Source: Sneathiella aquimaris
GTDB taxonomy: Bacteria > Pseudomonadota > Alphaproteobacteria > Sneathiellales > Sneathiellaceae
Direction of reading: 5' to 3'
Assembly: GCF_026409565.1 (NCBI RefSeq)
Contig: NZ_CP112881.1
Location: 3,727,501 to 3,791,500 of the forward strand
DNA length: 64,000 nt
Made by a program: the position numbers and the translations under genes. Shown here piece after piece: positions 2,801 to 19,100 of the stretch; the stretch's first letter is position 1; every line of letters starts with the position of its first letter. The notes below the pieces were generated by a model that was not told the origin of the DNA, did no database searches, and saw only the letters and a program-made list of their open reading frames with translations.

Positions 2801-4156
2801 ATGCTGTCTCTAATAAAGCGCACCCTTCTTGGGAATGATATTGATGGTCAATTACCGGCGCGGGTGCAACAGGCCATACAAACACAGGAAAATCAGTCAG
2901 AAATACTGATTGCCTGGGTACAGCTCTTTCTGGTCATGGTTTTTGCGACCCTCTACGCGCTTTCGCCAAAAACCTTTTCTGCTGATGCAATGTTCGCCCC
3001 CGTGCCCTATGCGCTTGCCTCCTATTTGATATTCACGCTTATCCGCACGGCCGTTGCCATCACCCGGTATCTTTCCTGGTGGTTTTTATCCCTGTCTGTC
3101 ATTGCCGATATGACATTGCTTATGTTCCTGATCTGGAGCTTTCATATCCAATATGAGCAAGAACCCTCTTTTTATCTTAAAGCGCCGACCCTGCTTTATG
3201 TTTTTATTTTCATATCGTTAAGGGCGTTGCGATTTGATGTGCGCTATGTCCTTCTGGCGGGCCTGAGTGCGGCGCTCGGTTGGACAGTGTTGCTTGGTTA
3301 TGCTGTTCATTCCGGTAACGGAATGGCCAATATTACCAATGATTATGTCCTATACACCATGTCCCACAATATTTTGCTGGGTGCCGAGTTTGACAAAATC
3401 ATCAGTATTCTTGTCGTGACGTTTATTCTCGCACTGGTAATTGTCCGGGCAAAACGGCTGCTGATCAATTCGGTTGCGCAGGCGACCGCTGCAGAAGACC
3501 TGTCGCGCTTTTTCTCACCGGAAATTGCAGAAAAAATCACCCATTCAGAAGGATGGATCGAGCCGGGAACCGGTCAAACCCGAGAAGCGGCCATCCTGCA
3601 TTGTGATCTGCAAGGCTTTACCCGCCTTTCCATGGAAAAGCCGGCCAATGAAGTGATCACGCTTCTTGCTGAGTATCAGGCCCGGATTGTTCCCATCATC
3701 CAACGCAATGGCGGTACAATCGACAAGTTTCTCGGTGACGGCATTCTGGCTACTTTTGGTGCCGCTGTACAAACGGATCATTATTCTGCCGATTGCCTTC
3801 GGGCAATGGAAGAAATGATGGTGGAAACCAGAGACTGGGCAAAAGAGCGAGAAGCCCAAGGCCTTGAACCTCAGGTTATTCGCTTCACCGCCGCCTCGGG
3901 ATCAATTCTGTTTGGCGCAGTCGGCGACAAAAGCCGGCTGGAATATACGGTGATCGGCGAGCCGGTCAATCTGGCCGCTAAACTCGATAAACATGCAAAA
4001 GCCGAACAGGCCATTGCCCTGCTTACCTTGCAAAGCTATGAAGAAGCACTCGCTCAGGGCTTTACGCCATCCACACAGATGGAAATCCGCGCCGCCCGCG
4101 ATGTCGGCGGCGTGACAGGCCTTGTGGATCTTGTCGTCCTCACCGAAGCCGATTGA
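2801..4156 (+). CDS. membrane-anchored class III adenylate/guanylate cyclase
   Basis: A 451-residue protein. The N-terminal half has about six hydrophobic segments (roughly 36-58, 66-86, 93-113, 130-143, 148-170 and 200-216). A short linker (DLSRFFSPEIAEKI, about 233-246) leads into a cytoplasmic class III cyclase domain. Metal-binding aspartates are visible as Asp269 in HCDLQGFTRLS and Asp313 in IDKFLGDGILATFG; Lys309 fits the purine-recognising position. The segment EYTVIGEPVNLAAKLDKHA carries the transition-state Asn (Asn390), but Lys394 stands where Arg is usual. It should convert ATP (or GTP) to a cyclic nucleotide and PPi at the inner membrane. A stand-alone cyclic-nucleotide-binding protein is encoded at 18630-19100, a possible effector. 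The gene is convergent with the ABC importer operon. Confidence 0.88.
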   Translation: MLSLIKRTLLGNDIDGQLPARVQQAIQTQENQSEILIAWVQLFLVMVFATLYALSPKTFSADAMFAPVPYALASYLIFTLIRTAVAITRYLSWWFLSLSVIADMTLLMFLIWSFHIQYEQEPSFYLKAPTLLYVFIFISLRALRFDVRYVLLAGLSAALGWTVLLGYAVHSGNGMANITNDYVLYTMSHNILLGAEFDKIISILVVTFILALVIVRAKRLLINSVAQATAAEDLSRFFSPEIAEKITHSEGWIEPGTGQTREAAILHCDLQGFTRLSMEKPANEVITLLAEYQARIVPIIQRNGGTIDKFLGDGILATFGAAVQTDHYSADCLRAMEEMMVETRDWAKEREAQGLEPQVIRFTAASGSILFGAVGDKSRLEYTVIGEPVNLAAKLDKHAKAEQAIALLTLQSYEEALAQGFTPSTQMEIRAARDVGGVTGLVDLVVLTEAD

Positions 4157-4176: not shown

Positions 4177-5364
4177 TTATTTATATGGATCCGCCGCATC
4201 CCGAAGACCATCCCCCAGGAAGTTAAACGCCAAGACAACGATAATGACGGGCACCACCGGATACATAAGCCAAGGTGTCGTCGCAACCGCATTGATATTG
4301 GTTGTTTCATTCAGCAATACCCCCCAGGATGTAATCGGCGGTCGCAACCCCAATCCAAGGAAGGAAAGCGCTGTTTCACCCAGAATCATGCTGGGAACGG
4401 CGAGGCTGGCGCTGGCGATCAGATGGCTGGCGAATGATGGCAACAGGTGGCGTCCAATAATCCGGGACGGACTGGCCCCCATCAACTGGGCCGCCGTTGT
4501 AAAGTCTTCCTCGCGTAACGACAGGAATTTTGATCGAACAGCGCGGGCAAGGCCCGGCCAATCCAGCAATCCAAGGATGACCGTCAGTCCAAAAAATACC
4601 CAGATCGGCGACCAGGTCACCGGTAGCGCCGCCGATAAGGCTAGCCACAGAGGCAATTGAGGGAGAGATTTCAACAGCTCGATGGTTCGTTGAATAACGT
4701 TATCAATCCAGCCACCATAATAGCCTGAGATACCACCAAGAATAATACCCAGCGTAAAACTGATAATGATACCGATCAGTCCGATGGTGAGGGAAATACG
4801 GGTACCATAAATGATCCGGGACAGGATATCCCGGCCCAGCCGGTCTGTCCCAAGCCAGAAGAAGGTTGCTTTACGCTGGTCATCCTGACAGACCAGATGA
4901 ACATCGGTTTCAACCATTCCCCACAACTTATAGTCGTCGCCGCGGCAAAAATACCGCAGGGTATAAATCTGCTTTGTGTCAATCCGATATTCCCGCTGCA
5001 AGGTCTCAAGGTTCAACCGCTGGCGATACCCATAAACAAACGGCGCTCTTATCTCACCTTCGTGAAAGATGTGAATGGACTGCGGCGGCGCAAAAATATA
5101 TTTCGTATTTCGGCTATGCAACTCATAGGGCGCAAGAAACTCTGTAAAGATGACCGAAAGATAAAATAGCAGCAAAACCAGGCCGCTGATCACGGCCAAA
5201 CGGTGGCGGCAAAATTTCCACCACATCATTTTCCATTGCGACGCCAGATAGAATTTTTCCTGCTCTGCAGAGAGCTTTTCTACGGAATAGGGGTCAAAAG
5301 GTTCTGTCGAATGCCAGTGATCCAGCTTTGTCGTCTTGCCGGTTTCGTTGTTGATATCACTCAT
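4177..5364 (-). CDS. peptide-type ABC transporter permease (YejE/OppC-like)
   Basis: A 395-residue inner-membrane permease. A long cytoplasmic N-terminus precedes the first membrane segment (about 58-78). A periplasmic insert of roughly 90 residues follows; its beginning (APYELHSRNTKYIFAPPQSI) is typical of the YejE subgroup rather than plain OppC. The remaining membrane spans and the EAA loop (AAQLMGASPSRIIGRHLLPS), which contacts the ATPase, are intact. It is the last gene of the minus-strand importer operon and overlaps the preceding permease gene by four bases (ATGA). With that permease, the binding protein and the fused ATPase it should form an importer for peptides or peptide-like compounds. 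Confidence 0.9.
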   Translation of the reverse strand: MSDINNETGKTTKLDHWHSTEPFDPYSVEKLSAEQEKFYLASQWKMMWWKFCRHRLAVISGLVLLLFYLSVIFTEFLAPYELHSRNTKYIFAPPQSIHIFHEGEIRAPFVYGYRQRLNLETLQREYRIDTKQIYTLRYFCRGDDYKLWGMVETDVHLVCQDDQRKATFFWLGTDRLGRDILSRIIYGTRISLTIGLIGIIISFTLGIILGGISGYYGGWIDNVIQRTIELLKSLPQLPLWLALSAALPVTWSPIWVFFGLTVILGLLDWPGLARAVRSKFLSLREEDFTTAAQLMGASPSRIIGRHLLPSFASHLIASASLAVPSMILGETALSFLGLGLRPPITSWGVLLNETTNINAVATTPWLMYPVVPVIIVVLAFNFLGDGLRDAADPYK

Positions 5365-6389
5365 TTCGTGGCCCCTCCTGACAATCTGATCCGGGGGTCC
5401 AGCATGGCAAGCAGAATATCAGACACAAAGACACCGATGACCGTCAACAAGGCAAGGAACATCAGGAAGGATCCCGCCAGATACTGATCTTGCGATCGTA
5501 ACGCGTCCAGCAGCATGGGACCGGCAGTCGGCAAACTCAGAACCGCACTCACGATCACCGATCCAGAAATGACATCGGGCAGTAAATTCCCAATATCGGC
5601 AATAAAGGGATTAAGCGACATCCTGATCGGATATTTTATAAGGGCCCGCACCTTGGGGACCCCTTTCGCCTTGGCCGTTGTTACATATTGCTTTTGCAAT
5701 TCATCGAGCAGATTTGCCCGCAGACGGCGGATCATGGCTGCTGTACCACTGGTGCCGATAACAATCACCGGAATAATCATGTGATCCAGAACCGACAGGG
5801 CCTTGTCGATACTCCAGGGCTGATCCAGATATTGCTCATCCATCAGCCCGCCAATCGACAGGCCGAGATAGTAGTTGGCGTAATATAAAAGAACCATCGC
5901 CAGAAGGAAGTTCGGCGTTGCCAGCCCCAGATATCCGACCAGCGTAAAACCATAGTCCCCAATGGAATATTGGCGGGTCGCCGAATAAACCCCAATGGGA
6001 AAGGCCACAATGTAAATAAAGATTATCGTTGAGAAATTAATCACGAAGGTCAGGAACATTCGGTCCCCAAGAACTTCACTTACCGGCAGATCATAGGCAA
6101 AAGAATGTCCCCAGTTGCCCTGCAACAACCCGGAAAAACCGTTCGGCCCTGGCCAAAATCCCATCCAGATCGCATATTGCTCAACAAGCGGCTTGTCCAG
6201 CGAATACTGTTCCCGATAAAACGCAATCTTCGCCGCCGCCGACGCGGACTCCCCTTGCGCTTTCAATTCCTGAAGCTGATTGGAAAGATAATCACCCGGG
6301 GGCAACTGAATAATGATGAAAGTCAGGATACTGACCACCAGCAAAGTCGGGATCATAACCAGAACGCGTTGTGCAAAATAACTGAACAT
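5361..6389 (-). CDS. peptide-type ABC transporter permease (YejB/OppB-like)
   Basis: A 342-residue permease beginning MFSYFAQRVLVMIPTLLVVS, the usual OppB/DppB first membrane helix. Several further spans follow, with an EAA-like loop (TTAKAKGVPKVRALIKYPIR). The region LPPGDYLSNQLQELKAQGES, followed by the extended QYAIWMGFWPGPNGFSGLLQGNWG segment, matches the YejB subgroup. It is the partner of the permease encoded immediately downstream, with which it overlaps by four bases. A 60-base gap separates it from the upstream binding-protein gene. Confidence 0.9.
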   Translation of the reverse strand: MFSYFAQRVLVMIPTLLVVSILTFIIIQLPPGDYLSNQLQELKAQGESASAAAKIAFYREQYSLDKPLVEQYAIWMGFWPGPNGFSGLLQGNWGHSFAYDLPVSEVLGDRMFLTFVINFSTIIFIYIVAFPIGVYSATRQYSIGDYGFTLVGYLGLATPNFLLAMVLLYYANYYLGLSIGGLMDEQYLDQPWSIDKALSVLDHMIIPVIVIGTSGTAAMIRRLRANLLDELQKQYVTTAKAKGVPKVRALIKYPIRMSLNPFIADIGNLLPDVISGSVIVSAVLSLPTAGPMLLDALRSQDQYLAGSFLMFLALLTVIGVFVSDILLAMLDPRIRLSGGATK

Positions 6390-6449
6390 CCGCTTAGTTT
6401 CCCCCTACCCCATCAGCCGATAAAATACATATTGCCAGTAAAGTTGGCA

Positions 6450-8366
6450 TTATTCTGCCCCCGTTTTCTGACTGGTATCAAACCAGAACATATCCGGATG
6501 ATAAATCCCGAACTGCGCGCCAGGATCCCAATTAAAGATCGCCTTTTTCGGTACGTTTTTTAAAATGTTCTTCACAACAATGGGCTGCAATATACCGCTG
6601 ACGACACCAATGGTATATTGCTCCTCCGCATGGATCCATAACATTTCTGTCCAGATTTTTGTTCGTTCTGCCGTGTCAGAGGCGTTCAGCCATTTGGAAT
6701 ATAGCGCGTTCAACTGATGGACTTTTGGCATGTCCACTTCTTCGCCAGACTGTCCTTTGGTCTCGAAATACTGTCCCCATTTCGGCCATTGATAGCTTTG
6801 CTGACTTGTTGTCGCCAGGATTGCCGGGCTGCTTTCCGGCGTTGGCACGCCATTTTCCAATCCGCCCCAAACCGATAAGATTGTCTCGCCTGCGAAAATA
6901 CGATTTCTGAAGACGGATCGTTGGGATGGTTTGATAAACAGGGAAATACCGATTTCTTTCCAGGAATCCCGGATCAATTCCAAGACATCAGACTGTTCAG
7001 AATTTTCGCCCGCCGTTTCCACAATCAACAAAAGTGGTTCACCATTGGGAAGAAGCCGAATGCCATTGTTATCCCGGTCTGTCAGACCTATTTCATCAAG
7101 AAGCGCATTTGCTTTTTCGATATCCAGCGTTGCCCATCTGGTTCGCAATTCATCCGAATAAAAAACGCTCTGTTCCTGAACCGTATTATTGCCTTCTTTC
7201 GCCAAGCCGAAAAACAGGACATCGTTGATCTCTTCGCGGTCAATACCCAATGATAGCGCCCGCCGGAACCGCGCGTCGCGCATAAGCTTTCGCCAAACAG
7301 GATCAGAGGCGTTTAGATTTGGGAATAAGGCAAAATGGGACCCACGGACAGTTGGCCATAAAAGGGTCCTGTATTTGGAGCGTTTTTCATTGGCTTTAAG
7401 AAAAGTCGCATCCTGCAAACGAATAGCCCGGGCCTGCAGGTCAACATCCCCGGAAGCCGCCTTGGCGGAAATGAGTTTGCTTTCGGAAATGGATAACACA
7501 ACCCGGTCAATATACGGCAGCTGGCGACCTTTTTCGTCAACCCGGTGAAAATACGGGTTTCGAACCCCGACAAATCGGTTGGCCGGTGCGGCAGTTGTGT
7601 TGCGCCACGGTTGAAGCGTTGGCAATTCAGGATTGTCAAATTTGTACAGATTATCTTTGCGGTTATGATTGGAGGCCCAGGACTTGAACTTGATCTTCTG
7701 GATCTTGCTCATCTTGGATTTATCCACATACCGATCATGAAATTTTTTCAAATAATGAGCTGGCCGATAAATCAGCAACGGCGACGCCCCGGCAAGAGAC
7801 GCCAGAAAATTCGGGTTTGGCCGCGTCCAGGCATACCGAACCGTATACGCATCTGGGAAAGTTACTTCAGGATATTGATCTTCAACCGCCAGTGCGGAGG
7901 GCGGACCTGTCGGGGACAGCTTTGGATTGTTCGCGACATCTTCCCACCAATACCGGAAATCCTCTGATGTGAAGGGTGCCCCGTCCGACCATTTATGGCC
8001 TTTACGCAAATAAAAGGTAAAGACGCGGTTATCCTGTACTTCAAAATCACGAACGATATCCGCAGCAATTTTCAAATCCTGTGTATAGCCAACCAGACGC
8101 GCATACCCATAAACAAACATCAACTTCACATCAGACGCACTGCCAATGAGCGTTTTAAGACTGCCACCATATTCACCAAGTGTCCGACCCTCTCGTAACG
8201 GAACGACAAGAGGGGTATCGGGCAACCGTTCTGCCATGGGAGGCAGTTGCCCCATATCCACCTGTTCTTTCAAAGAAGGGATTTCGGCAGCAACCCCGAG
8301 ACTGGCAAGACACCAGAGACAGGCCGTCATTATTGCCAATTTTATGTTCCTGAAATGAGCAGTCAC
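6450..8366 (-). CDS. periplasmic substrate-binding protein, SBP_bac_5 (YejA-like)
   Basis: A 638-residue solute-binding protein. Residues 1-27 form a signal peptide (positive start, hydrophobic core, cleavage after SLGVAA). The mature protein has family-5 features: FYLRKGHKWSDGAPFTSEDF (about 115-134), a lid region with FVGVRNPYFHRVD, and FRRALSLGIDREEINDVLF. Its size and the LPYIDRVVLSIS region match the YejA branch, which binds oligopeptides or peptide antibiotics of the microcin C type. The start codon overlaps the stop of the upstream ATPase gene (ATGA at 8363-8366), so it is translationally coupled. It delivers ligand to the two permeases encoded downstream. The ligand itself cannot be read from the sequence. 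Confidence 0.9.
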   Translation of the reverse strand: MTAHFRNIKLAIMTACLWCLASLGVAAEIPSLKEQVDMGQLPPMAERLPDTPLVVPLREGRTLGEYGGSLKTLIGSASDVKLMFVYGYARLVGYTQDLKIAADIVRDFEVQDNRVFTFYLRKGHKWSDGAPFTSEDFRYWWEDVANNPKLSPTGPPSALAVEDQYPEVTFPDAYTVRYAWTRPNPNFLASLAGASPLLIYRPAHYLKKFHDRYVDKSKMSKIQKIKFKSWASNHNRKDNLYKFDNPELPTLQPWRNTTAAPANRFVGVRNPYFHRVDEKGRQLPYIDRVVLSISESKLISAKAASGDVDLQARAIRLQDATFLKANEKRSKYRTLLWPTVRGSHFALFPNLNASDPVWRKLMRDARFRRALSLGIDREEINDVLFFGLAKEGNNTVQEQSVFYSDELRTRWATLDIEKANALLDEIGLTDRDNNGIRLLPNGEPLLLIVETAGENSEQSDVLELIRDSWKEIGISLFIKPSQRSVFRNRIFAGETILSVWGGLENGVPTPESSPAILATTSQQSYQWPKWGQYFETKGQSGEEVDMPKVHQLNALYSKWLNASDTAERTKIWTEMLWIHAEEQYTIGVVSGILQPIVVKNILKNVPKKAIFNWDPGAQFGIYHPDMFWFDTSQKTGAE

Positions 8367-10255
8367 AGTTTTAACTCCGACATATCAGCATCTTTCTGGA
8401 CCCGAATAAAATGATCATCCCCCAAATCATACATCATGGCAGGGCTTTCATCACTGGCTGTAAACGGCCTTGCCCAGGCTTTTGGATCAGAAGCTTTTTC
8501 TTCCACAAGATGGGCGAAATCCAGTTTATGTTCCGGATCGGGCTCCGGGACAGCCGCCAAGAGCCGTTTTGTATAAGGATGCACCGGATTTTTAAACAAA
8601 ACATCGCGGGGCGCCGTTTCTACCAGTTTGCCTTGGCACATCACAGCAATTCGGTCCGCGATATAATCCACCACCGCCAAATTGTGAGAGATGAACAAAT
8701 AAGTAAGGCCCAACTCTTTTTGCAGGTCTTTCAGCAAATTCAGGATCTGCGCCTGAATTGATACATCCAGCGCAGAAACCGGCTCATCACAAATTAACAA
8801 ATCCGGTTTCAGGGCCAGGGCTCTTGCTATTCCGATACGCTGGCGCTGCCCGCCAGAGAAAGAATGAGGGTAGCGGCGCAGAAAACGGATATCCAGACCC
8901 ACGAGGTTCATCAATTCCTTGACCGTTTCCTCCCGCTCTTTCTGATTTCCAATATTGTGGATAACCAATGGTTCCGAAATAATATCAAAAACCGTCATCC
9001 GCGGATTGAGGGATGAAAAGGGATCCTGAAAGATAAACTGGACTTTTTCGCGATAATCGAACAGTTCTTTTTTGCCAAGATGCAGAACATCCAGATCCGT
9101 TCCCCGATCATTATAGGTAACAACCCCTTCTGACGCGGTGACGGCCCGAAGGATCAATTTTGACAAGGTCGTTTTTCCGCAACCGGACTCGCCGACCAGT
9201 CCCAGGCATTCCCCCGGCTTTATGTAAAAACTAACATCATCGACCGCCTTCACCGTACCGCCGGGCTTACTGCCCAGCATCGTTGTTTTACGGGTTGTGA
9301 ATGTTTTGCTTAAATTTTGGACCGATAAAATCGGTGGATCGTCATGTCCGCCCGGCTTGCGTGGATTGGCCTGACTTAAAAACCGGCTGTCTTTTTCGCG
9401 CTTGATTTCCCGGATCGGGGTCAACTTTTCCCCTTCTTTCATGTGAAAACGCGGAACAGCTTTCAGAAGAGCTTTCAGGTAGGGATGCCGCGGGTCACCA
9501 AAGATATCATCCAGTGTCCCCTGCTCCATGACCTTGCCATGATACATGACGACCACTTCGTCCGCCATACTGGCGACGACACCCAGATCATGGGTAATCA
9601 TCAAGATGGCCATTTTCAGTTGTTTCTGCAACGATTGCATCAAATCCAGGATCTGAGCCTGGATGGTCACATCAAGGGCCGTTGTCGGCTCATCCGCAAT
9701 AAGCAGGGCGGGGTTACAAATCATGGCCATGGCAATCATCGCCCGCTGCCGCAACCCGCCTGACAATTCAAAGGGATACGTGCTCAACGCCGCTTCAGGA
9801 TCCGGAAATCCAACCAGACGGAGCATATCCATGGTGATTTCCTGACCTTCCTGCTTTGTTTTCTTATGATGCAGGTGAAGGGCCTCGGAAATCTGGTCAC
9901 CGATCGTATGCAACGGGGACAGGGACGTCATCGGTTCCTGAAAAATAATCGTAATCCGCCCACCGCGAATTTCGCGCATTTCCCGGCTGTCTGGTTTCAG
10001 TTTTGCAATATCATAAAAATTGCCGGGCTTCTGGGGATCAAAAAATATGATTTCACCTTTTGAAATCCGTGCCGCTTTGGGAAGAATGGACATAATCGCC
10101 TGACTGATAACCGATTTACCAGAACCAGACTCGCCGACCAGCGCAACGGTTTTACCTTCAGGCACACGAAAACTCACACCATCGACGGCTTTGACAACAC
10201 CCTCGGCGACATGAAATTCAACTTTCAGATCACGAACCAGCAACACATTGGACAT
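8363..10255 (-). CDS. fused two-domain ABC ATPase (YejF/DppDF-like)
   Basis: A 630-residue protein with two complete ATPase domains in tandem. The first has Walker A GESGSGKS (41-48), signature [10 protein letters not shown] and Walker [13 protein letters not shown]. The second has Walker [10 protein letters not shown] (about 353-361), signature [15 protein letters not shown] and Walker [13 protein letters not shown]. Both carry the C-terminal oligopeptide-transporter extension ([12 protein letters not shown] and [14 protein letters not shown]). This fusion is the YejF arrangement, replacing separate DppD and DppF subunits. It is the first of the four importer genes here, whereas yejF is last in the usual yejABEF order. 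The small membrane-protein gene upstream ends only three bases before its start. Confidence 0.92.
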
Positions 10256-10258
10256 TCT

Positions 10259-10777
10259 TTATTTTCTTCCCCAACTAGCTGGCTGTATATCGCCGTGGTT
10301 ATTGGCGTAGATGCCAAGAATATCCAGATTTTGTGCTGTTGCCGAACTGAAAGAAAGACCTCTGCCCGCAGCAATGGTTGCGCAGATTTCCACCAAATCT
10401 TCGAAATCAGTGATCGTGGATTCAATCCTCAATCGAACACCTCTACCTTCCAACTTAAGCTGCATCCATCCCTTTTCTCCATCACGGCGTGTGGAAAAAT
10501 AGGAAACCGAGAATGCCTTAAGTTCCTCCCAATCAATACATTTAGCCTGTAATCCGGTTATGCAGATTTTATTTTCCGTAATACAGACTTTTGCAATATG
10601 CCTGTTTATTGCTCTTAAAGCATACAAGATAAACAGGCAAAGCAAAGCTCCCAATATATAAACAATGACAGATGATGGCCTCAACAACAAGAGGGGAAGC
10701 GCGGTTAGTCCAATTCCAATTCCCGCCCGCACATACTCGCGCATCACTTCCTTAAAAGGGTAGGTAAATACTTTCAT
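10259..10777 (-). CDS. small membrane protein of unknown function
   Basis: A 172-residue protein that I do not recognise by name. Two hydrophobic segments (about 17-33 and 37-54) form a hairpin, followed by a soluble region with alternating short strands (KVCITENKICITGLQAKCIDW, WMQLKLEGRGVRLRIES). This layout resembles bacterial PH-domain (YcxB or bPH-like) proteins, but that is only a fold-level guess. It sits immediately upstream of the importer ATPase with a three-base gap, so it is probably cotranscribed with the transporter. It may also continue the transcript of the glycan genes, which end 55 bases upstream. Confidence 0.65.
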   Translation of the reverse strand: MKVFTYPFKEVMREYVRAGIGIGLTALPLLLLRPSSVIVYILGALLCLFILYALRAINRHIAKVCITENKICITGLQAKCIDWEELKAFSVSYFSTRRDGEKGWMQLKLEGRGVRLRIESTITDFEDLVEICATIAAGRGLSFSSATAQNLDILGIYANNHGDIQPASWGRK

Positions 10778-10832: not shown

Positions 10833-11591
10833 TTACTCCACTAGCGCCATAGCGCCGGGAAATGTCATCCATCTTACAGCTTTGTGACTGTTTAAAAAGG
10901 ACAGTAGTTTAAAAGTAATTTCCCAAATCGCCTCGTCATGAACAAGATGATGGGTCAACAGCCCGGTTGGTTCCAGCACATCAGCACCTCCCGACCGCCG
11001 CGCCTGCAGATGGCGGATCACAAGAGCAAGCACTTCTTTCTCGTCAAGGGCACTTCTGTTTCCGCGCCAGAAGATAGGGTCAACATGGGTATTTATTTCC
11101 ACAAGCCCCCCGTTGTGAACCGCATTTTCCCGAGCTCTATAGCGCGACAAACCAATAAATCCCGCGTCTGCAAGCGGGCCGAGCAAACGGGATGTGATCC
11201 GGTTCCAGGGAGGAACAAAGACGGGAAGATACTGACCACCGAACAATTCCTCCATCCGTGATTTACCGGACAGTATATCCGACAGGCTTTCGTCCACAGG
11301 GCGCGTGTCTGGAAATTCGCACTTCTTTTGTCCGGCATCTGCAAAGTTCTGATGCAGCACCCCATGTTGCAAAAACAGGCAGCCATCGGCCTCGTCTGCA
11401 ATATGTGGATCAACCCGATCTGGAATAACGGCAAGCCCCAGCGGAATATCCAGCGCAGCCCTTAACTGAAGCAAGCGCATGAACGCATCTGTTGGCTCGT
11501 TCAGATCGTCATCGCGCCACCAGAAGGTCGCCCTCTTGCCAGCGTCCAGCCATTGGTCCAGCTCAGCTTGCAATAGATCCCAATCAGCCAT
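10833..11591 (-). CDS. polysaccharide deacetylase-like protein
   Basis: A 252-residue NodB-fold protein. The start at 11591 (MADWDLLQAELDQWLDAG) is chosen because it overlaps the upstream glycosyltransferase stop by eight bases; a start 18 codons earlier would overlap that gene further. Active-site features of carbohydrate esterase family 4 are visible: the acidic pair in FWWRDDDL and the metal histidines in LQHGVLHQN (HGxxH). FVPPWNRIT also matches the family. It has no signal peptide, so it probably acts on a cytoplasmic glycan precursor. It is the last gene of the five-gene glycan set and likely removes an acetyl group from a sugar built by the neighbouring glycosyltransferases; the substrate is unknown. 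Confidence 0.8.
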   Translation of the reverse strand: MADWDLLQAELDQWLDAGKRATFWWRDDDLNEPTDAFMRLLQLRAALDIPLGLAVIPDRVDPHIADEADGCLFLQHGVLHQNFADAGQKKCEFPDTRPVDESLSDILSGKSRMEELFGGQYLPVFVPPWNRITSRLLGPLADAGFIGLSRYRARENAVHNGGLVEINTHVDPIFWRGNRSALDEKEVLALVIRHLQARRSGGADVLEPTGLLTHHLVHDEAIWEITFKLLSFLNSHKAVRWMTFPGAMALVE

Positions 11592-12747
11592 TTTTTTCTG
11601 CAACCCATTGTTTAAGAAGCGCCGCTGACCGGGTTCCTCCGTCAATATCGATCGATGCTTCAGATGGGGGCCCTTTCAGCGCCCTGTCCACTTGACCCGC
11701 CAATATCTCCGGTGTGAGCCCGGCTTCATTAGCAATATGAAGCACGCCTTTTTTCGCCAGCAGCTCTGCCCGTAACGTCTGTTCGGTCTCCACGCCCCCC
11801 GCATAAGGCACAATCACCGCCCGGCAACCGGCATAGAGAATTTCCATCACAGTATTGTAACCGCCCTGACTGATCGACAGATCACAATTCATCAGCAAAC
11901 TGGTAAAATCTTTTCGCGCCCTCTCCACAATAACCCCGGCGGGGGCCATCCCGCGAAGTTCTTGAAAAATCTCATCTTCGACGGTCGTTCCAACCATCAT
12001 GCGCCAGACCTTATCACGGGCAGAAGACAACGCCTTGGCTTTCATCGCGGTTTTCAAAAGTTCTGTTCCGACGGCTCCCCCGCCGCTGGACACAATCACC
12101 TCGCCCGCGCCGACCGGCTCTGCGCCTCCACGGACACCGGTGCGGTCAACCACATATCCGGTGTAGAAAATCTGGCCCTGAATTCGGGCGGTATGCGGAA
12201 AGGTCCGGTCGAGTGAAATAAGCTCTGGATCCCCATGAACCATGACTTTATCAAAATAGGTTTCGACAAGGGCCAGCATTTCGTCGTTCCGGCCGGGCTT
12301 GGTTTGGGCAACTAGAATATCCCGAACAGAGGAGACAATCAGAGGCGGCTTTCCTGACGCCTTTGCGGCTTTCAACAACGGTAATAATTCAAACCGCATC
12401 TGACGGCGCCCAAAAGGAAATAGCTCTGTAATCAGGATATCCGGTTGGATATCGTCATACAGATCCAGCAATTTTCCGGCGCGCATGTCGCGCCAACCAT
12501 CATCAATCTGATTTCCTTCTTCATCGACAAGTTCTTTAAAGAACAGATCGGTGGCTCGCGTGGCCGGCAGTTGAACAAGGTGCGCCCCGCCCAGATCGAT
12601 GTCGATCTTGTGCCCACCTGAAACAACGGTGACATCAAAACCGGATCGCACCAGATTTCGGGCAAGCGTCGCGGTTCTGCGAAGATGTCCAATCCCCAGA
12701 AGGTGCTGCACATAAAAAAGAACGCGGATGGGCAATAACTCGGTCAT
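11584..12747 (-). CDS. MurG/GT28-like glycosyltransferase
   Basis: A 387-residue protein with a GT-B glycosyltransferase pattern. The N-terminal Rossmann half begins VLFYVQHLLGIGHLRRTATL, with the glycine/His motif typical of family 28. The C-terminal half contains VSSGGGAVGTELL (about 227-239) and the nucleotide-sugar binding region SISQGGYNTVMEILYAGCRAVIVPYAGG, equivalent to the MurG donor loop. It lacks membrane helices and probably works at the cytoplasmic face. Its ATG overlaps the upstream phosphatase gene's stop by four bases. The donor sugar and acceptor cannot be determined. It belongs to the glycan cluster on positional grounds. Confidence 0.82.
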   Translation of the reverse strand: MTELLPIRVLFYVQHLLGIGHLRRTATLARNLVRSGFDVTVVSGGHKIDIDLGGAHLVQLPATRATDLFFKELVDEEGNQIDDGWRDMRAGKLLDLYDDIQPDILITELFPFGRRQMRFELLPLLKAAKASGKPPLIVSSVRDILVAQTKPGRNDEMLALVETYFDKVMVHGDPELISLDRTFPHTARIQGQIFYTGYVVDRTGVRGGAEPVGAGEVIVSSGGGAVGTELLKTAMKAKALSSARDKVWRMMVGTTVEDEIFQELRGMAPAGVIVERARKDFTSLLMNCDLSISQGGYNTVMEILYAGCRAVIVPYAGGVETEQTLRAELLAKKGVLHIANEAGLTPEILAGQVDRALKGPPSEASIDIDGGTRSAALLKQWVAEKNG

Positions 12748-13325
12748 GATGTCTCCAACGGAATATTCACGCAGTCAGGAAATATCCTGCCAGACGGGTC
12801 TACTTTAAATAAATGCACGCAGGACCAATCGAACGGAACTGGCGCTTTTTCAGTCATGTCCCAGTTGTAAGCCAGGGATTTCAAGGCGCGTATAATCCCT
12901 TTATGTGTAACGGCTATTGTTGGTTCAGACAATTCCATAAGCCAGGGTCGCAAACGCTCCTGAACCATGGCTGGGCTTTCCCCGGCAGGCGGCTGCATAT
13001 GAAGCCCCTTGGCTTCATTCTGACGCATTTCCTCTCCGTAAAGGGCTCGAAGCTCGGACAAGGTCTTACCGTCCCAGTCCCCCCAATCCATCTCAATAAT
13101 CCGCGGTTCGATATGCGGGGCTTCCGCCCCCAGCAGCAAAGCGGTCTCTTCCGCCCGTTTTAAGGGACTACTGACCCAGTTGAACGCGCGAAACCGGGCC
13201 GGGATACGAACCCCTTCAAGCGTTTTACGTCCGATATCACTTAACGGAATATCACGCCGCCCCTGAATACGTTTTTCAAGGTTCCATTCGGTTTTTCCAT
13301 GCCGGACAAGCAATAAAGGGATCAC
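12744..13325 (-). CDS. histidine phosphatase family protein (phosphoglycerate mutase fold)
   Basis: A 193-residue protein beginning MIPLLLVRHGKTEWN, the RHG catalytic motif of the histidine phosphatase superfamily. A second catalytic His lies in IAVTHKGIIRAL and an acid in IEMDWGDWDGKTLSE. The length fits the cobC/gpmB-type phosphatase branch. Since it lies inside a glycan operon with ATGA overlaps on both sides, a sugar phosphate or nucleotide-sugar intermediate is a plausible substrate. That is inference, because the family is highly promiscuous. Confidence 0.85.
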   Translation of the reverse strand: MIPLLLVRHGKTEWNLEKRIQGRRDIPLSDIGRKTLEGVRIPARFRAFNWVSSPLKRAEETALLLGAEAPHIEPRIIEMDWGDWDGKTLSELRALYGEEMRQNEAKGLHMQPPAGESPAMVQERLRPWLMELSEPTIAVTHKGIIRALKSLAYNWDMTEKAPVPFDWSCVHLFKVDPSGRIFPDCVNIPLETS

Positions 13326-14449
13326 GATAAAACCTCGCCGAGCTGTTGTTTTAACATGGATGAAGCCGCCTCCAACCCCCGTTTATCACGTGCAAAATTG
13401 GCTGCATTTTGTCCCAGCTGAGCTCGTAGATGCGGCTCATCCAGCAATTTCCGAATTGCCGCAGCAAACGCTGGCATATCTCCGGCAGGGCAAAGCAAGC
13501 CCGTTTTACCTGAAAGCACAACATCGGGAACACCGCGAATATCTCCCGCCACGGCTGGCAAGCCACAAGAGGCTGCTTCCAGAAATGTCATGCCATACGC
13601 CTCCCCATGGGCAGGCCAGACATACACATCCGCTTTTTTATACAAACCGAAAAGCGCCGGAGCCTCCAAAGCACCCAGAAACAAAAGCCGATCCTTTGCC
13701 GGTTCAAAGAACGAGCGAATAAGGTCTTTTTGTGGGCCATCCCCGACGACTGCCAATTGCCAATCATCTCCGCCGAGAAACCGGCAAGCCTCAGCAAGTT
13801 GTCTGTAGGATTGTAATTTATCGCCGCTTCTCATCATGGCAACAGTCAGTAAGAGCGATTTTTGACAATCCCACCCGGCATTCTCAAGCAACCGTTCCAC
13901 ATCTTTTTCGGCCAGCGCCGCGGGCTGTTCATCCAGAAAGGGCGGCAAATATACCAGAGCGTCCTGTCGGTCGAGCAATGGCTTCAGGCAGGCCCCATCC
14001 AGACGGGTCATATGAAACACCCGCGACGCCTGCTTTATCGCCTTTTCCGCGGCCTCATATCCCATGGCCCAAGGCCCCTCTTTCTGTTTAGGCGCATGGC
14101 TGGCTTCTGCGACAAAATACGGTATCCCAAAATGCCCCGACACTTTTGGGCCAATCCAGTCCGGAGCCTTGTGATACACATGATAGGTAAACCAGGCCTG
14201 TGGCCGCGCGGCGGGTTCTGTGTTTTCCAAAACCGAAATTATTCGTTCCGCCTCAGCCAATCCCGCTAAACGAACCTCTTCTTGGCAGGACTTATCGCCG
14301 TTTTTGTCGAAACTTCGAAATTCGCTATAAAGGTCAACCTCAAATCCAGCTTCACGCAATGCTTTCATCAACAATCTGGCCACCCGTCTGTCACCTGATG
14401 GGACAGGGTGGTTTGGTGATTTCATTGGTGCGTAAAAGCCAAGTTTCAT
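13322..14449 (-). CDS. glycosyltransferase family 4 protein
   Basis: A 375-residue GT-B glycosyltransferase. The C-terminal donor-binding domain has the GT4 hallmarks: LLFLGALEAPALFGLYKKADVYVWPA followed by EAYGMTFLEAASCGLPAVAG, where the EX7E-type glutamates sit, and a typical tail (LLDEPHLRAQLGQNAANFA). The N-terminal half begins MKLGFYAPMKSPNHPVPSGDRRVARLL, consistent with the acceptor-side Rossmann fold. It is cytoplasmic. It overlaps its neighbours by four bases on each side, indicating translational coupling in the glycan operon. Linkage and sugars are unknown. Confidence 0.87.
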   Translation of the reverse strand: MKLGFYAPMKSPNHPVPSGDRRVARLLMKALREAGFEVDLYSEFRSFDKNGDKSCQEEVRLAGLAEAERIISVLENTEPAARPQAWFTYHVYHKAPDWIGPKVSGHFGIPYFVAEASHAPKQKEGPWAMGYEAAEKAIKQASRVFHMTRLDGACLKPLLDRQDALVYLPPFLDEQPAALAEKDVERLLENAGWDCQKSLLLTVAMMRSGDKLQSYRQLAEACRFLGGDDWQLAVVGDGPQKDLIRSFFEPAKDRLLFLGALEAPALFGLYKKADVYVWPAHGEAYGMTFLEAASCGLPAVAGDIRGVPDVVLSGKTGLLCPAGDMPAFAAAIRKLLDEPHLRAQLGQNAANFARDKRGLEAASSMLKQQLGEVLS

Positions 14450-15717
14450 GATGGATTATCTGTTTTGTCTGGAGCAGTTTTAAGTCCGAATTTTGCCGCC
14501 AGTCTGTCAATCCATTTAGACGCGTCAAATTTTTGCCGAAGAATTTCATCCCCGCGATCGGCAAATGCCTGACGTTTAGCCGGAAACACGATCATATTTT
14601 CAAGCGCCGCCGCCAAAGATACTGGGTCACGCTGCGGTACAAGAAGACCACTTTCACCGTTCTCAATCAATTCGGGAATAGCGGAAACCTCTGTTGATAC
14701 TACCGCCACTTTCTGGCTTTGTGCCTCCATCAATACATTGGGCAATCCATCACGGTCGCCATCATCTGCGATCCGACTTGCCAGGACGAAAATGTCGGAT
14801 GCCTTAAGGTTTTCCAGAACGTCTTTTTGTGACAGCGCACCGCGCCAGGTAATCCGATCAGACAATCCAAGTTCTGCTGCCTGCTGTTTTAAATCCTTTA
14901 ATAAGCCACCCCCGCCAATATGGGTAAAATGCCACTGCAGGTCTTCTGGCAGAATGGCCAACGCCTTCAGCAGATCATCATACCCCTTTTTTGTCACGGC
15001 ACGGCCAACAGAAATGATTTTCACGGGTGCGGCAGCGTCCCGCCCATCGTTGACATGGTTTTTATCAGGTGCCACAGGAAAGCGGGACAAATCAAGCCCG
15101 TGATATAACAAAGAGACCGTTTCAGGATTTGACGCCAGTTTTCGCAAATAATGTGTGTTGAAACTGGTGCAGGTCACCAGCCATTTCAGATCATCCAGTT
15201 TTTCTGACAGTTCCCATTCTTCAGATGTCCAGATATCTTTGGCATGCGCCGAGCAGGACCAGTCCAACCCTGTCATATGTGCCGCATACCGCGCGACAGA
15301 CGCGGGCGTATGCAAGAAATGCGCATATAATTCGCGGCTGCCTTCCGGCATTTCTGCGGCCAGGACCAACGCCTGCCCAAAGCGGCGTCCACGATTGGAA
15401 GTCACTCCCCTTAAAAAATCACGGATCCAGATCGACTTCGCTTTCTTATATCCTGGAAAATGTCTGGCTTTCTTCCATGCGCGCCAGACGCGACCCGGTT
15501 CCTGATACAAATATTCTGGTAAATATGTAACAGGCGCCTGAATTTCATCGTGGATCGGATGGGTTGTTTTATCCGTCGGATGACGCAGAGAAATCAGATG
15601 CAGCCGCAACCCCTTTTTTTCCAGGGCCAGTAATTCCTGCGCGATAAAGGTTTCAGAAAGGCGCGGATATCCTTTCAGCACAACGGTTATTACATTCTGT
15701 GGTTCTGAATTTGACAA
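14446..15717 (-). CDS. glycosyltransferase family 4 protein, first gene of the glycan operon
   Basis: A 423-residue GT-B glycosyltransferase of the type found in exopolysaccharide clusters. Key features are GYPRLSETFIAQELLALEKKG at the start, VGRAVTKKGYDDLLKALAIL in the middle and the donor-site region DGLPNVLMEAQSQKVAVVSTEVSAIPELI. The middle segment LYHGLDLSRFP is also typical of GT4. It is the promoter-proximal gene of the minus-strand set and reads away from the divergent ABC-like gene at 15956. Its stop overlaps the start of the next glycosyltransferase gene by four bases. Confidence 0.87.
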   Translation of the reverse strand: MSNSEPQNVITVVLKGYPRLSETFIAQELLALEKKGLRLHLISLRHPTDKTTHPIHDEIQAPVTYLPEYLYQEPGRVWRAWKKARHFPGYKKAKSIWIRDFLRGVTSNRGRRFGQALVLAAEMPEGSRELYAHFLHTPASVARYAAHMTGLDWSCSAHAKDIWTSEEWELSEKLDDLKWLVTCTSFNTHYLRKLASNPETVSLLYHGLDLSRFPVAPDKNHVNDGRDAAAPVKIISVGRAVTKKGYDDLLKALAILPEDLQWHFTHIGGGGLLKDLKQQAAELGLSDRITWRGALSQKDVLENLKASDIFVLASRIADDGDRDGLPNVLMEAQSQKVAVVSTEVSAIPELIENGESGLLVPQRDPVSLAAALENMIVFPAKRQAFADRGDEILRQKFDASKWIDRLAAKFGLKTAPDKTDNPS

Positions 15718-15955: not shown

Positions 15956-18604
15956 ATGGAACACAGCATATATAAGTATATTTTGCGACACAGCAAAAAG
16001 CAGCAGATTATTCTGACACTTATGTCATTCGCTTCCTTCCCGTTTCTCTACTACTATCTCGAACTCCCCAAAATCATCATCGATCAGGCAATTCAGGCAA
16101 AAGACATTCTGTTCCCCGTTGAAGTCCTTGGCTTTGAAATTGATCAAAAAGAATTTTTATATGTTTCGGTCAGTGCCTTTTTGTTGCTGGTCATTATCAA
16201 TCAATGTTTTAAATACGCCATCAACGTGTATCAGGGTGTCACCGGCGAAAGAATGCTACGCCGATTGCGCTATGAATTATACAGTCGCATTCTGAGATTT
16301 CCCCTGCCGACTTTCCGCAAAAAAAGCTCGGGGGAAATCATTCCCATGATCACGGCCGAGGTTGAGCCGCTGGGTGGTTTCATTGGTGAAGCCTTTGCGC
16401 TCCCCGCTTTTCAAGGCGGGTACCTGATTGTCATCATGAGTTTTCTGCTAGTGCAAAATGTTTATATGGCTCTCGCAGCAATTGCCCTGTATCCCGCGCA
16501 GGCCTATTTCATTCCCAAGCTACAGAAGAAAGTCAACCAACTGGGTAAGGAAAGGGTGCGCCTGGTTCGCGTCCTGTCTGATCAGATCGGCGAAACTGTC
16601 GCCGCTGTACAGGAAATTCACGTCCATGACGGCTCCAATTATCTTCGCGCAAGCTTCACGTATCAGCTGGGTCGGATCTTCAAAGTCAGGTACCGGATTT
16701 ACCTGCTGAAATTCATCATCAAATTCCTCAACAACTTCATTCAGCAACTGGGACCATTTTTCTTCTACGCGCTTGGCGGCACGATGGTTATCAATGGTAA
16801 TCTTGAAATCGGTACGCTGGTTGCGGCGATTTCCGCCCATAAGGAGATGGCCGCCCCCTGGAAAGAACTGCTCTCTTATTACCAGCGCCGTGAGGATGCC
16901 CGGATCAAGTATGAACAGGTCGTCGAACAGTTTGAGCCAGCTGGAATGCGCGATGAAAGCAACCAGCTTGTCGAGCCTGAAGAAATTCCGCAGCTGAAAG
17001 GTGAGTTGGTTGCCAGCAACATTGTTCTTTCTGACGATACGGGCTCGGCCCAGCTGGAAGGCCTGAACCTAAAACTGGCCCTCGACAAACGGGTTGCCAT
17101 TGTTGGACAGGCAGGCTCCGGCCGTGAAGCATTGACACAGGTTTTATCCCGTCTCATTGATCCTGACCGCGGCAAAGTAACTGTTGGAAATCTTGATTTT
17201 TCCGAAGCATCGGAAGCCGTTATCGGACGGAGAATTTCCTATCTGGGCCAAAGTGGCTATGTGTTTAACACCACCATTGGCGAAAATCTGTTTTTCAGCT
17301 TAAAGCACCGCCCCTTGCGCGAGGTCCTGTTTGAAGGGGAAGAGCAAGAATTTCGTGAAGAAGATGTCAAAGAAATTCTGTTAACAGGAAACTCACCGGA
17401 TGATTTTGGTGCCGACTGGATCGACTTCGAAAGTGCGAATGTTGAAGATCTGAAAGGGTTGCATGATCGGGCGATTGACGTCCTGCACATGGTTGATCTG
17501 GGAGAAGATGTTTATCAATTCGGCCTGAGAAGCACCCTCGACCCGATAGAAGATCCGGAGATTGCCCAACTGATCCTTGGGGCAAGAAAACGTTTTTATG
17601 AAAAGCTGACTGCGGATACGGCATTTGCAAATCTGGTCGAAGCCTTCTCCAAGGAAAAATACAATACCAATGCCACGCTTGGCGAAAACCTGTTATTCGG
17701 AACCCCGGTTGATAGTGCCTTCGATATGGAACGCCTTGCTGAGAACTCTTATGTCCAACAGGTCATTGACGATGCTGACCTGACAGACTCGTTTTTGAAA
17801 ATGGGCTTTCAGGTCGCTTCCCTGATGGTTGAATTGTTTGCTGACCTGCCTCCTGATCATGAATTTTTCCAACTTTATGGATTTATTTCCTCCGACGAAT
17901 TGCCAGAATATCAGGCTATTCTCAGCCGTGTGAACGCTGACAACCTGCACCAACTGCGCGAAGAAGACCGGCTCCGTTTTATGTCATTGCCGTTCAAAGT
18001 GATCCCTTCAAGGCATCGCTTGGGTGTTGTTACAGATGAAATTCAGGAAAAAATTGTCGAAGCCAGAAAACAGTTCGTTGACCATCTGCCAGAAGATCTA
18101 CAGGGCAGCATCGCGTTTTTTGACGAAAACACCTATAATGCGGCTGCTAATATTCAGGATAATATCCTGTTTGGCAAAATCTCTTACGGCTTTGCACAGG
18201 CGGCTGAAAAAATTGGTGGCCTGCTGGCGGCCGTGGTTGATGAAATGGAACTGAAACGGACGATCATTAAAGTGGGTCTGGATTTCAGGGTTGGTGCTGG
18301 CGGGGCCCGGCTAAATGAAAATCAAAGACAAAAATTGTGTATTGCCCGAGCCATTCTAAAACGACCAGATATTCTGGTTCTCAGTCAGGCAACAGCAACG
18401 TTCGACAACCGCACCCAGCAACGCATCACTGAAAATATTCTGTCAGAATTTGAAGGTCGTTCAGTTATCTGGTCGATTGAAAAACCTGAAATGGCCTATC
18501 TGTTTGATCATATAGTTGTCATCAATGGCGGGGTAATTACGGAATCTGGAAATTTTGATCACCTTCAGAAGAACGGCGAGCAATTCAAACTGCTCAGTGC
18601 CTGA
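15956..18604 (+). CDS. exporter-type ABC protein with degenerate ATPase domain and large insert
   Basis: An 882-residue protein. Residues about 1-320 look like a type I ABC exporter membrane domain: six hydrophobic segments and coupling-helix sequence such as RRLRYELYSRILRFPLPTF. From about 355 a nucleotide-binding fold follows, but its catalytic residues are replaced. Walker A is GQAGSGRE (384-391, Lys to Arg), the signature is LNENQ (786-790) instead of LSGGQ, Walker B is DILVLSQATATFD (805-817; Asp-Glu to Ser-Gln), and the H-loop His is Glu842. A Q-loop-like Gln remains in ISYLGQSGYVF. Between Q-loop and signature lies about 340 residues against the usual 60 or so. This region contains three copies of a motif resembling TIxENxLFG: NTTIGENLFFS (438-448), NATLGENLLFG (572-582) and NIQDNILFG (732-740). 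It heads a likely four-gene operon, with the cNMP-binding gene 25 bases downstream. A transporter without ATP hydrolysis, a scaffold or a regulated channel are all possible. Confidence 0.85.
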   Translation: MEHSIYKYILRHSKKQQIILTLMSFASFPFLYYYLELPKIIIDQAIQAKDILFPVEVLGFEIDQKEFLYVSVSAFLLLVIINQCFKYAINVYQGVTGERMLRRLRYELYSRILRFPLPTFRKKSSGEIIPMITAEVEPLGGFIGEAFALPAFQGGYLIVIMSFLLVQNVYMALAAIALYPAQAYFIPKLQKKVNQLGKERVRLVRVLSDQIGETVAAVQEIHVHDGSNYLRASFTYQLGRIFKVRYRIYLLKFIIKFLNNFIQQLGPFFFYALGGTMVINGNLEIGTLVAAISAHKEMAAPWKELLSYYQRREDARIKYEQVVEQFEPAGMRDESNQLVEPEEIPQLKGELVASNIVLSDDTGSAQLEGLNLKLALDKRVAIVGQAGSGREALTQVLSRLIDPDRGKVTVGNLDFSEASEAVIGRRISYLGQSGYVFNTTIGENLFFSLKHRPLREVLFEGEEQEFREEDVKEILLTGNSPDDFGADWIDFESANVEDLKGLHDRAIDVLHMVDLGEDVYQFGLRSTLDPIEDPEIAQLILGARKRFYEKLTADTAFANLVEAFSKEKYNTNATLGENLLFGTPVDSAFDMERLAENSYVQQVIDDADLTDSFLKMGFQVASLMVELFADLPPDHEFFQLYGFISSDELPEYQAILSRVNADNLHQLREEDRLRFMSLPFKVIPSRHRLGVVTDEIQEKIVEARKQFVDHLPEDLQGSIAFFDENTYNAAANIQDNILFGKISYGFAQAAEKIGGLLAAVVDEMELKRTIIKVGLDFRVGAGGARLNENQRQKLCIARAILKRPDILVLSQATATFDNRTQQRITENILSEFEGRSVIWSIEKPEMAYLFDHIVVINGGVITESGNFDHLQKNGEQFKLLSA

Positions 18605-18629: not shown

Positions 18630-19100
18630 GTGGACTTAAGAGAAGAGGTGGAAACCCTACGACAGATACCTTTGTTCGCAAAAGCAGACCCCTCGAAAGT
18701 GAAACTGCTTGCCTTCACCTCGGAACGGGTCATTTTCCAGGCCGGTGATTTTGTCTGTCAGCAAGGTGAAATGGGGGAAGCTGCCTATGTTATCATGAAC
18801 GGCAAAGCGGACGTCGTGGTCAATACGCCATCCGGTCCGATCACGGTTGCGACAATGAAAAAGAATGATGTGGTCGGAGAAATTTCCATCCTGATCAATA
18901 TTCCCAGAACAGCAACGATCAAAGCTGCGTCCGAACTGACCACCCTAAAAATTACGAAAGACCAGTTTCTTCGGATGATTACAGAGTTCCCTGAAATGTC
19001 GATCGAAATGATGCGTGTTCTGGCGGAACGACTGGTCCGCACAACAGAAGAGCTGCAAAAAGCCAAAGAAAGCCTGCAAAAATACGATGGCGAAGACTAA
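18630..19100 (+). CDS. stand-alone cyclic-nucleotide-binding domain protein
   Basis: A 156-residue protein starting with GTG at 18630, behind a strong AGGAGAGA. Residues about 15-115 form a CRP/PKA-type cNMP-binding beta-roll. The phosphate-binding cassette is well kept: VVGEISILINIPRTAT (about 81-96), with Gly84-Glu85 and Arg93 at the ligand-contacting positions. The C-terminal helix (about 115-150, EMMRVLAERLVRTTEELQKAKESL) matches the CRP dimerisation/C-helix, but no helix-turn-helix follows, so it is not a transcription factor. It lies 25 bases after the degenerate ABC gene and is probably its regulatory partner, sensing cAMP or cGMP. The class III cyclase at 2801-4156 is a possible source of ligand. 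Confidence 0.85.
   Translation: MDLREEVETLRQIPLFAKADPSKVKLLAFTSERVIFQAGDFVCQQGEMGEAAYVIMNGKADVVVNTPSGPITVATMKKNDVVGEISILINIPRTATIKAASELTTLKITKDQFLRMITEFPEMSIEMMRVLAERLVRTTEELQKAKESLQKYDGED

Follow-up and report, generated by a model that had tools for sequence, protein, structure and literature searches.

A conserved alphaproteobacterial family of exporter-fold ABC proteins with lost ATPase motifs, usually accompanied by a cyclic-nucleotide-binding protein

ABC exporters are defined by ATP drive, and the locus analysed here raises the question of what becomes of such a protein when the residues of its ATPase are gone. The window, a stretch of 64,000 nucleotides from the genome of Sneathiella aquimaris, encodes an 882-residue protein in which both the six-helix exporter membrane domain and the NBD fold are recognised by Pfam, by an AF2 model and by VIA (Table 1). 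The N-terminal part matches ABC_membrane (PF00664, 82.1 bits) and the C-terminal part ABC_tran (PF00005, 53.9 bits), the latter in two stretches. The AF2 model, made with a 101-sequence alignment, has a pLDDT of 87.6 and a pTM of 0.83, and its NBD core (model residues 345-882) superimposes on the NBD of ComA (3vx4) with a Z of 30.9 and an rmsd of 1.8 over 239 of 239 residues (VIA). Canonical type IV exporters (MsbA, ComA/PCAT1, TM287/288, TmrAB) have the same membrane domain, NBD core fold and domain order, with VIA Z scores of about 29-31; unlike them, the family in the window lacks the four ATPase motifs and carries about 300 additional NBD residues with internal copies. Assignment to the MsbA lipid A exporters (TIGR02203, NCBIfam) was rejected, the score being 167.6 bits against a cut-off of 602. 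The name msbA homologue is used in PMC10945364 for Sinorhizobium meliloti SMb20813, a protein that is not equated here with the family of the window protein.

Table 1. Features of the ABC gene and of its neighbourhood (positions in the window).
Feature	Position	Strand	Basis
Exporter-type ABC protein, predicted to be ATPase-dead, whole gene, 882 aa	15956..18604	+	one intact frame, Pfam, AF2, VIA
Transmembrane domain, residues 1-330, type IV exporter fold	15956..16945	+	Pfam ABC_membrane 66-293, AF2 model
Former Walker A GQAGSGRE (384-391), K->R390, S/T->E391	17105..17128	+	sequence, family alignment
Segment copy 1 NTTIGENLFFS (438-448), after Q-loop Gln 432	17267..17299	+	sequence, hhalign
All-helical insertion, residues 452-716, between Q-loop and signature	17309..18103	+	pLDDT 92.2 when modelled by itself
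Segment copy 2 YNTNATLGENLLFG (569-582)	17660..17701	+	hhalign B vs C, prob 97.5
Segment copy 3 YNAAANIQDNILFG (727-740), runs into former signature	18134..18175	+	profile comparison (hhalign)
Former signature LNENQ (786-790)	18311..18325	+	sequence, family alignment
Former Walker B DILVLSQ (805-811) and kept D-loop Asp 817	18368..18406	+	sequence, family alignment
Former H-loop His, now Glu 842	18479..18481	+	sequence, family alignment
Cyclic-nucleotide-binding-domain protein, 156 aa, 25 nt downstream of ABC gene	18630..19100	+	Pfam PF00027 4.6e-18
GT4 glycosyltransferase, divergent from ABC gene	14446..15717	-	Pfam; relative in 49/74 loci
GT4 glycosyltransferase	13322..14449	-	Pfam; relative in 48/74 loci
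Histidine phosphatase family protein	12744..13325	-	Pfam; relative in 45/74 loci
GT28-like glycosyltransferase	11584..12747	-	Pfam; relative in 42/74 loci
Opp/Dpp-type ABC importer: two permeases, substrate-binding protein, fused double ATPase	4177..10255	-	Pfam
Class III adenylate/guanylate-type cyclase, 451 aa, membrane-type	2801..4156	+	Pfam PF00211 6.2e-11

A preliminary description of the gene had reported that Walker A, signature, Walker B and H-loop are all altered, which is true at the residues concerned, and the Walker A Ser/Thr has gone as well. The Walker B Asp-Glu pair is replaced by S810-Q811 within DILVLSQATATFD. All three glycines of Walker A survive in the protein, as do the Gln of the Q-loop (Q432) and the Asp of the D-loop (D817). 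Among named records, its closest relatives belong to Sneathiella and to Sneathiellales. Only one copy of the gene is present in its own genome, where the remaining matches are ordinary ABC proteins of 18-34% identity; two or three family copies per genome occur in some cases (G162, G310 and G065). When read with regular expressions, the own-genome exporters L002-L007 carry all four motifs (L003/L005 and L004/L006 being apparently the same genes), L008 and L009 failed some of the patterns, and L010 is a 291-residue ATPase.

Of 387 class genomes in the sample, 148 contain a homologue (E <= 1e-60), and at the same threshold so do 31 of 60 relatives; within the genus 20 of 23 genomes match, the gene being absent from the other three. 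A sample of 299 genomes from the phylum gave 28 matches at E <= 1e-40, the sole one from outside the class being a protein without an NBD, and on plasmids 332 records match, including rhizobial and roseobacter replicons. From 167 loci with a homologous frame, 133 distinct full-length homologues were obtained after removal of seven partial sequences (<820 aa) and 27 identical copies. None of these 133 retains all four motifs, one retains three, five retain two, 33 retain one and 94 retain none, so that the finding proposed in the preliminary description as evidence against its reading, intact motifs in most orthologues, did not appear. Lys plus Ser/Thr in Walker A is found in five homologues, a canonical LSGGQ-type signature in none, the Walker B Asp-Glu pair in five (counted singly, the Asp is kept in 16 and the Glu in 66) and the H-loop His in 36. 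The position of the Walker A Lys is nevertheless basic in 125 of the 133 (Arg in 65, Lys in 60), while the residue that follows is Glu or Asp in 107 and Ser or Thr in six; glycine 384 is kept in 120 and glycine 389 in 121, the D-loop Asp in 122 and the Gln of the former signature in 118. Fourteen later sequences, outside the 133, were inspected and all four motifs were found in none. By the same reading rules 30 of 30 MsbA-like control exporters possess all four, although this control is a favourable sample since it was taken from the top of the score list (the 30 best-scoring loci in 95 genomes of the class). As the homologues share the loss, alteration of the motifs by chance is excluded, and the loss of ATPase motifs is a family trait.

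Selection on the gene was estimated by computing Nei-Gojobori dN/dS values for four regions. Six Sneathiella pairs gave 0.018-0.084 (19 of 24 comparisons computable), three further pairs 0.031-0.091 and a single Ferrovibrio pair 0.092-0.322; these figures are rough, most pairs being close to saturation at synonymous sites. The membrane domain is best conserved, with a mean column identity of 0.66, and the values for the front of the NBD, the insertion described below and the rear of the NBD are 0.53, 0.56 and 0.56. The view taken in the preliminary description, that the loss is conserved and not a sign of decay, is borne out by the intact frame, by the lack of any homologue with all four motifs and by the low dN/dS, and also by the nine catalytic columns, each of which lies below the median conservation of the NBD columns.

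The statement that the overall fold is kept applies to the NBD core only, as a large and internally duplicated insertion in the NBD had gone unnoticed. Every family member has about 300 NBD residues more than the controls: the span from N444 to the signature is 313-412 residues in the family (median 340), against 39-40 residues from the end of the same Q-loop motif to the signature in the 29 readable controls. A repeated motif is present in three copies (NTTIGENLFFS, NATLGENLLFG and NAAANIQDNILFG), and profile comparisons reveal similarity of residues 549-700 to the native segment 701-805 (hhalign probability 97.5, E 7.6e-12, 63 columns), while the segment 415-548 resembles both of these more weakly (88.3 over 22 columns and 87.9 over 68). 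The insertion thus looks like further copies of the Q-loop/ABC-alpha (helical-subdomain) segment. A known fold for it was rejected, since no clear structural match emerged: Foldseek returned 84 matches at E up to 10 and none at E <= 0.001, and a second structure comparison gave 10 of 363 chains at Z >= 2. The top two of these are helical parts of ABC NBDs (PrtD 5l22 and TM287 4q7k, Z 4.0, 75 and 79 residues), model-based matches that are too weak to prove the origin of the insertion, yet are in line with internal copies. A Pfam scan of 96 insertion sequences produced a single match, in one member and to one family (0.0056), which is taken as chance.

The ABC gene is followed by one for a protein with a cyclic-nucleotide-binding domain, the phosphate cassette of which, GEISILINIPRTAT, is intact; no DNA-binding domain was found in its 156 residues. 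A relative of this partner lies downstream within 1.5 kb and on the same strand in 111 of the 133 homologues and is fused to the C-terminus of the ABC protein in 15, i.e. it is adjacent or fused in 126, while in six no relative was found nearby and one homologue stands at a contig end. The cassette Glu is present in 119 and the Arg in all of 127 partner rows (the window copy counted twice). As we take these two residues of PF00027 to belong to the cyclic-nucleotide pocket, their conservation suggests that this pocket has been kept where the ATP pocket was lost. A comparable association of an exporter-fold ABC protein with a cNMP domain is found in HetC, described in PMC10986499 as a peptidase exporter with an essential ATPase residue and an N-terminal ppGpp-binding domain. 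The window protein differs in that no peptidase domain is detected in it by Pfam, its ATPase is presumably dead and its cNMP domain is separate or, in fused members, C-terminal. According to PMC10986499 the ligand of the HetC cNMP domain is ppGpp, not cAMP, and cAMP need not be the ligand of the partner either.

Upstream of this pair lies a cluster of genes on the opposite strand, two glycosyltransferase families and a phosphatase among them. In the 74 loci with at least 4 kb on both sides, from which the counts for these neighbours are taken, relatives of the glycosyltransferases and the phosphatase are almost always encoded on the strand opposite the ABC homologue. Two further frames inside the cluster (10259-10777 and 10833-11645, both on the - strand) have no Pfam match at 0.001. 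An AmpG-like MFS gene (19141) and an acyl-CoA ligase gene (20496) were rejected as parts of the system, relatives being present in 0 of the 74 loci. On the Rhizobium leguminosarum plasmid pRle248d the cyclase, the importer, three glycosyltransferases, the ABC protein and the cNMP protein form one run. A close relative of the cyclase, defined as at least 268 bits by a cut-off chosen in this analysis, occurs in 75 genomes, 69 of which also have an ABC homologue and six the cyclase alone. Of those 69 genomes, 36 have the two genes no more than 35 kb apart, five have them on one contig at a large distance, and 28, mostly drafts, have them on different contigs; 76 of 145 listed genomes with the ABC gene lack a strong cyclase match. 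Judged by these counts of linkage and co-occurrence, the link to the cyclase is common and not constant. Genomes in which a close relative of the window cyclase is found and no ABC protein include G147, G229, G298 and G361. The preliminary description had overlooked the gene cluster as well as the partner and the duplicated insertion, which leaves its interpretation incomplete; these three together point to a mechanism.

We tentatively propose, with slightly less than even confidence, that the protein is a non-hydrolysing transporter or channel of exporter fold that is gated by a cyclic nucleotide through its partner. It would be a homodimer with the fold of a type IV ABC exporter. Its NBDs, remodelled and made larger by extra copies of their own Q-loop/helical segment, may persist as a platform for coupling that does not depend on ATP. 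The class III cyclase would make the cyclic nucleotide bound by the partner, and this partner, obligatory and either adjacent or C-terminally fused, would dock on the NBD platform and, once ligand-bound, gate the membrane domain through it. The substrate, the weakest step of the proposal, may be anionic, either a glycan or a lipid-linked compound, as hinted by basic residues of the membrane domain (K86, R103, R105, R200, R205, R245 and K256) that are nearly invariant in the family and not shared by the 30 controls, and by the glycosyltransferase cluster. That ATP is not hydrolysed by the 882-residue protein is strongly indicated by its residues, and the acid which replaces the Mg-binding Ser/Thr in 107 of the 133 homologues should repel phosphate and Mg, although single members of the family keep up to three of the four motifs. 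A conserved and apparently dead pump combined with a cyclic-nucleotide sensor suggests a transporter that is signal-controlled and not ATP-powered.

Proton drive, as in SbmA, is the main rival to gating. The protein would then be an ion-driven secondary transporter, its dead NBDs would do no more than keep the dimer joined, and the cNMP protein would regulate something else or expression, which we regard as unlikely. SbmA/BacA proteins (SLiPT) have the membrane fold of ABC exporters without ATP drive, and PMC13316013 describes SbmA-like transporters as proton-driven and as presumed descendants of full ABC transporters whose NBDs were lost. They have neither NBD nor coupling helices and possess a glutamate ladder, whereas the window protein keeps the NBD core, and constraint acts on the NBD and on the regions that face it. 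No such ladder is evident, all acids conserved in at least 85% of the members lying outside crude hydrophobic segments, which is a weak test because exporter helices extend into the cytosol. Membrane-domain-only relatives do exist: five homologues of 382-489 residues match ABC_membrane only, and in a tree of the membrane domain these proteins group with the family and apart from the canonical exporters, their placement inside or beside the family being weakly fixed (91/31 support at the nearest fork) and the canonical exporters and divergent rows standing on very long branches. No relative of the cNMP partner was found near the five in the fetched stretches, which is expected if the pseudo-NBD is the docking site of the partner. 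Two of the five are encoded amid copper-resistance genes on plasmids of Phaeobacter gallaeciensis (pP11_b, L197:11797-13266) and Roseobacter litoralis (pRLO149_83, L198:9773-11011), beside genes for TolC, a copper oxidase and plastocyanin, and the annotation of the stretches around these two shows no gene for an ABC ATPase. Other relatives are even more degenerate (L182, L183, L184, L191 and L192); they align mainly over the NBD and the insertion, at about 28-32% identity, and neither a canonical ATPase motif nor a nearby cNMP partner was found for them.

Somewhat less probable is a remaining role for ATP in the NBDs, which would bind it as a switch or use other residues to hydrolyse it at a slow rate. 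Some nucleotide binding is conceivable because a basic Walker A residue, glycines 384 and 389, the D-loop Asp and the Gln of the signature are mostly retained; the acid in place of Ser/Thr, the complete absence of a canonical signature and a conservation of the catalytic columns that does not exceed the NBD median all speak against such a role. Less probable again is a subunit with a regulatory or scaffolding role, which may pair with a canonical half-exporter from another locus, in the manner of SUR or of TM287/288. PMC7756269 describes heterodimeric exporters with a single degenerate site as common, and in exporters with one such site (TM287/288, TmrAB, MRP1, CFTR) evolution has likewise kept the non-catalytic NBD sites; canonical half-exporters are present in the same genome. 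The exporters with one degenerate site keep the other active, however, whereas in the single-gene protein of the window every site is degenerate, down to the Walker A Ser/Thr; a subunit lacking both Walker A and signature should spoil both composite sites, and no second exporter gene stands alongside, the neighbours being the cNMP protein and glycosyltransferases. An anti-phage module resembling Pycsar, with a cyclase and a cNMP-binding effector, is very improbable: the PADLOC models for the Pycsar cyclase and for PycTIR match the cyclase (1.4e-21) and the cNMP domain (5.3e-16), but both are broad for their domains, about 11.6-11.8 kb separate the cyclase and ABC genes in the window, and genomes across the class share the gene set, which is not patchy beside other defence genes. 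A pseudogene or decaying transporter, for all the core ATPase residues lost, is scarcely credible and was rejected on selection and conservation, as the frames are open, purifying selection acts throughout the family and the partner is conserved.

No description of this ABC family was recognised in the open-access literature searched, and gene tables label its members 'ABC transporter ATP-binding protein', a warning with regard to annotation. Beyond gating of the window protein, a wider and more doubtful proposition, which we hold as no more than possible, is that a class-wide ABC-fold family uses a cyclic nucleotide instead of ATP as its controlling ligand, as gated transporters or channels with a self-copied NBD segment that stand between ABC exporters and NBD-less secondary transporters. 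The family makes the role of an NBD without hydrolysis testable and offers a comparison for the NBD-less route taken by SbmA. If the proposal is true, it would show an ATP-driven machine turning into a signal-gated one.
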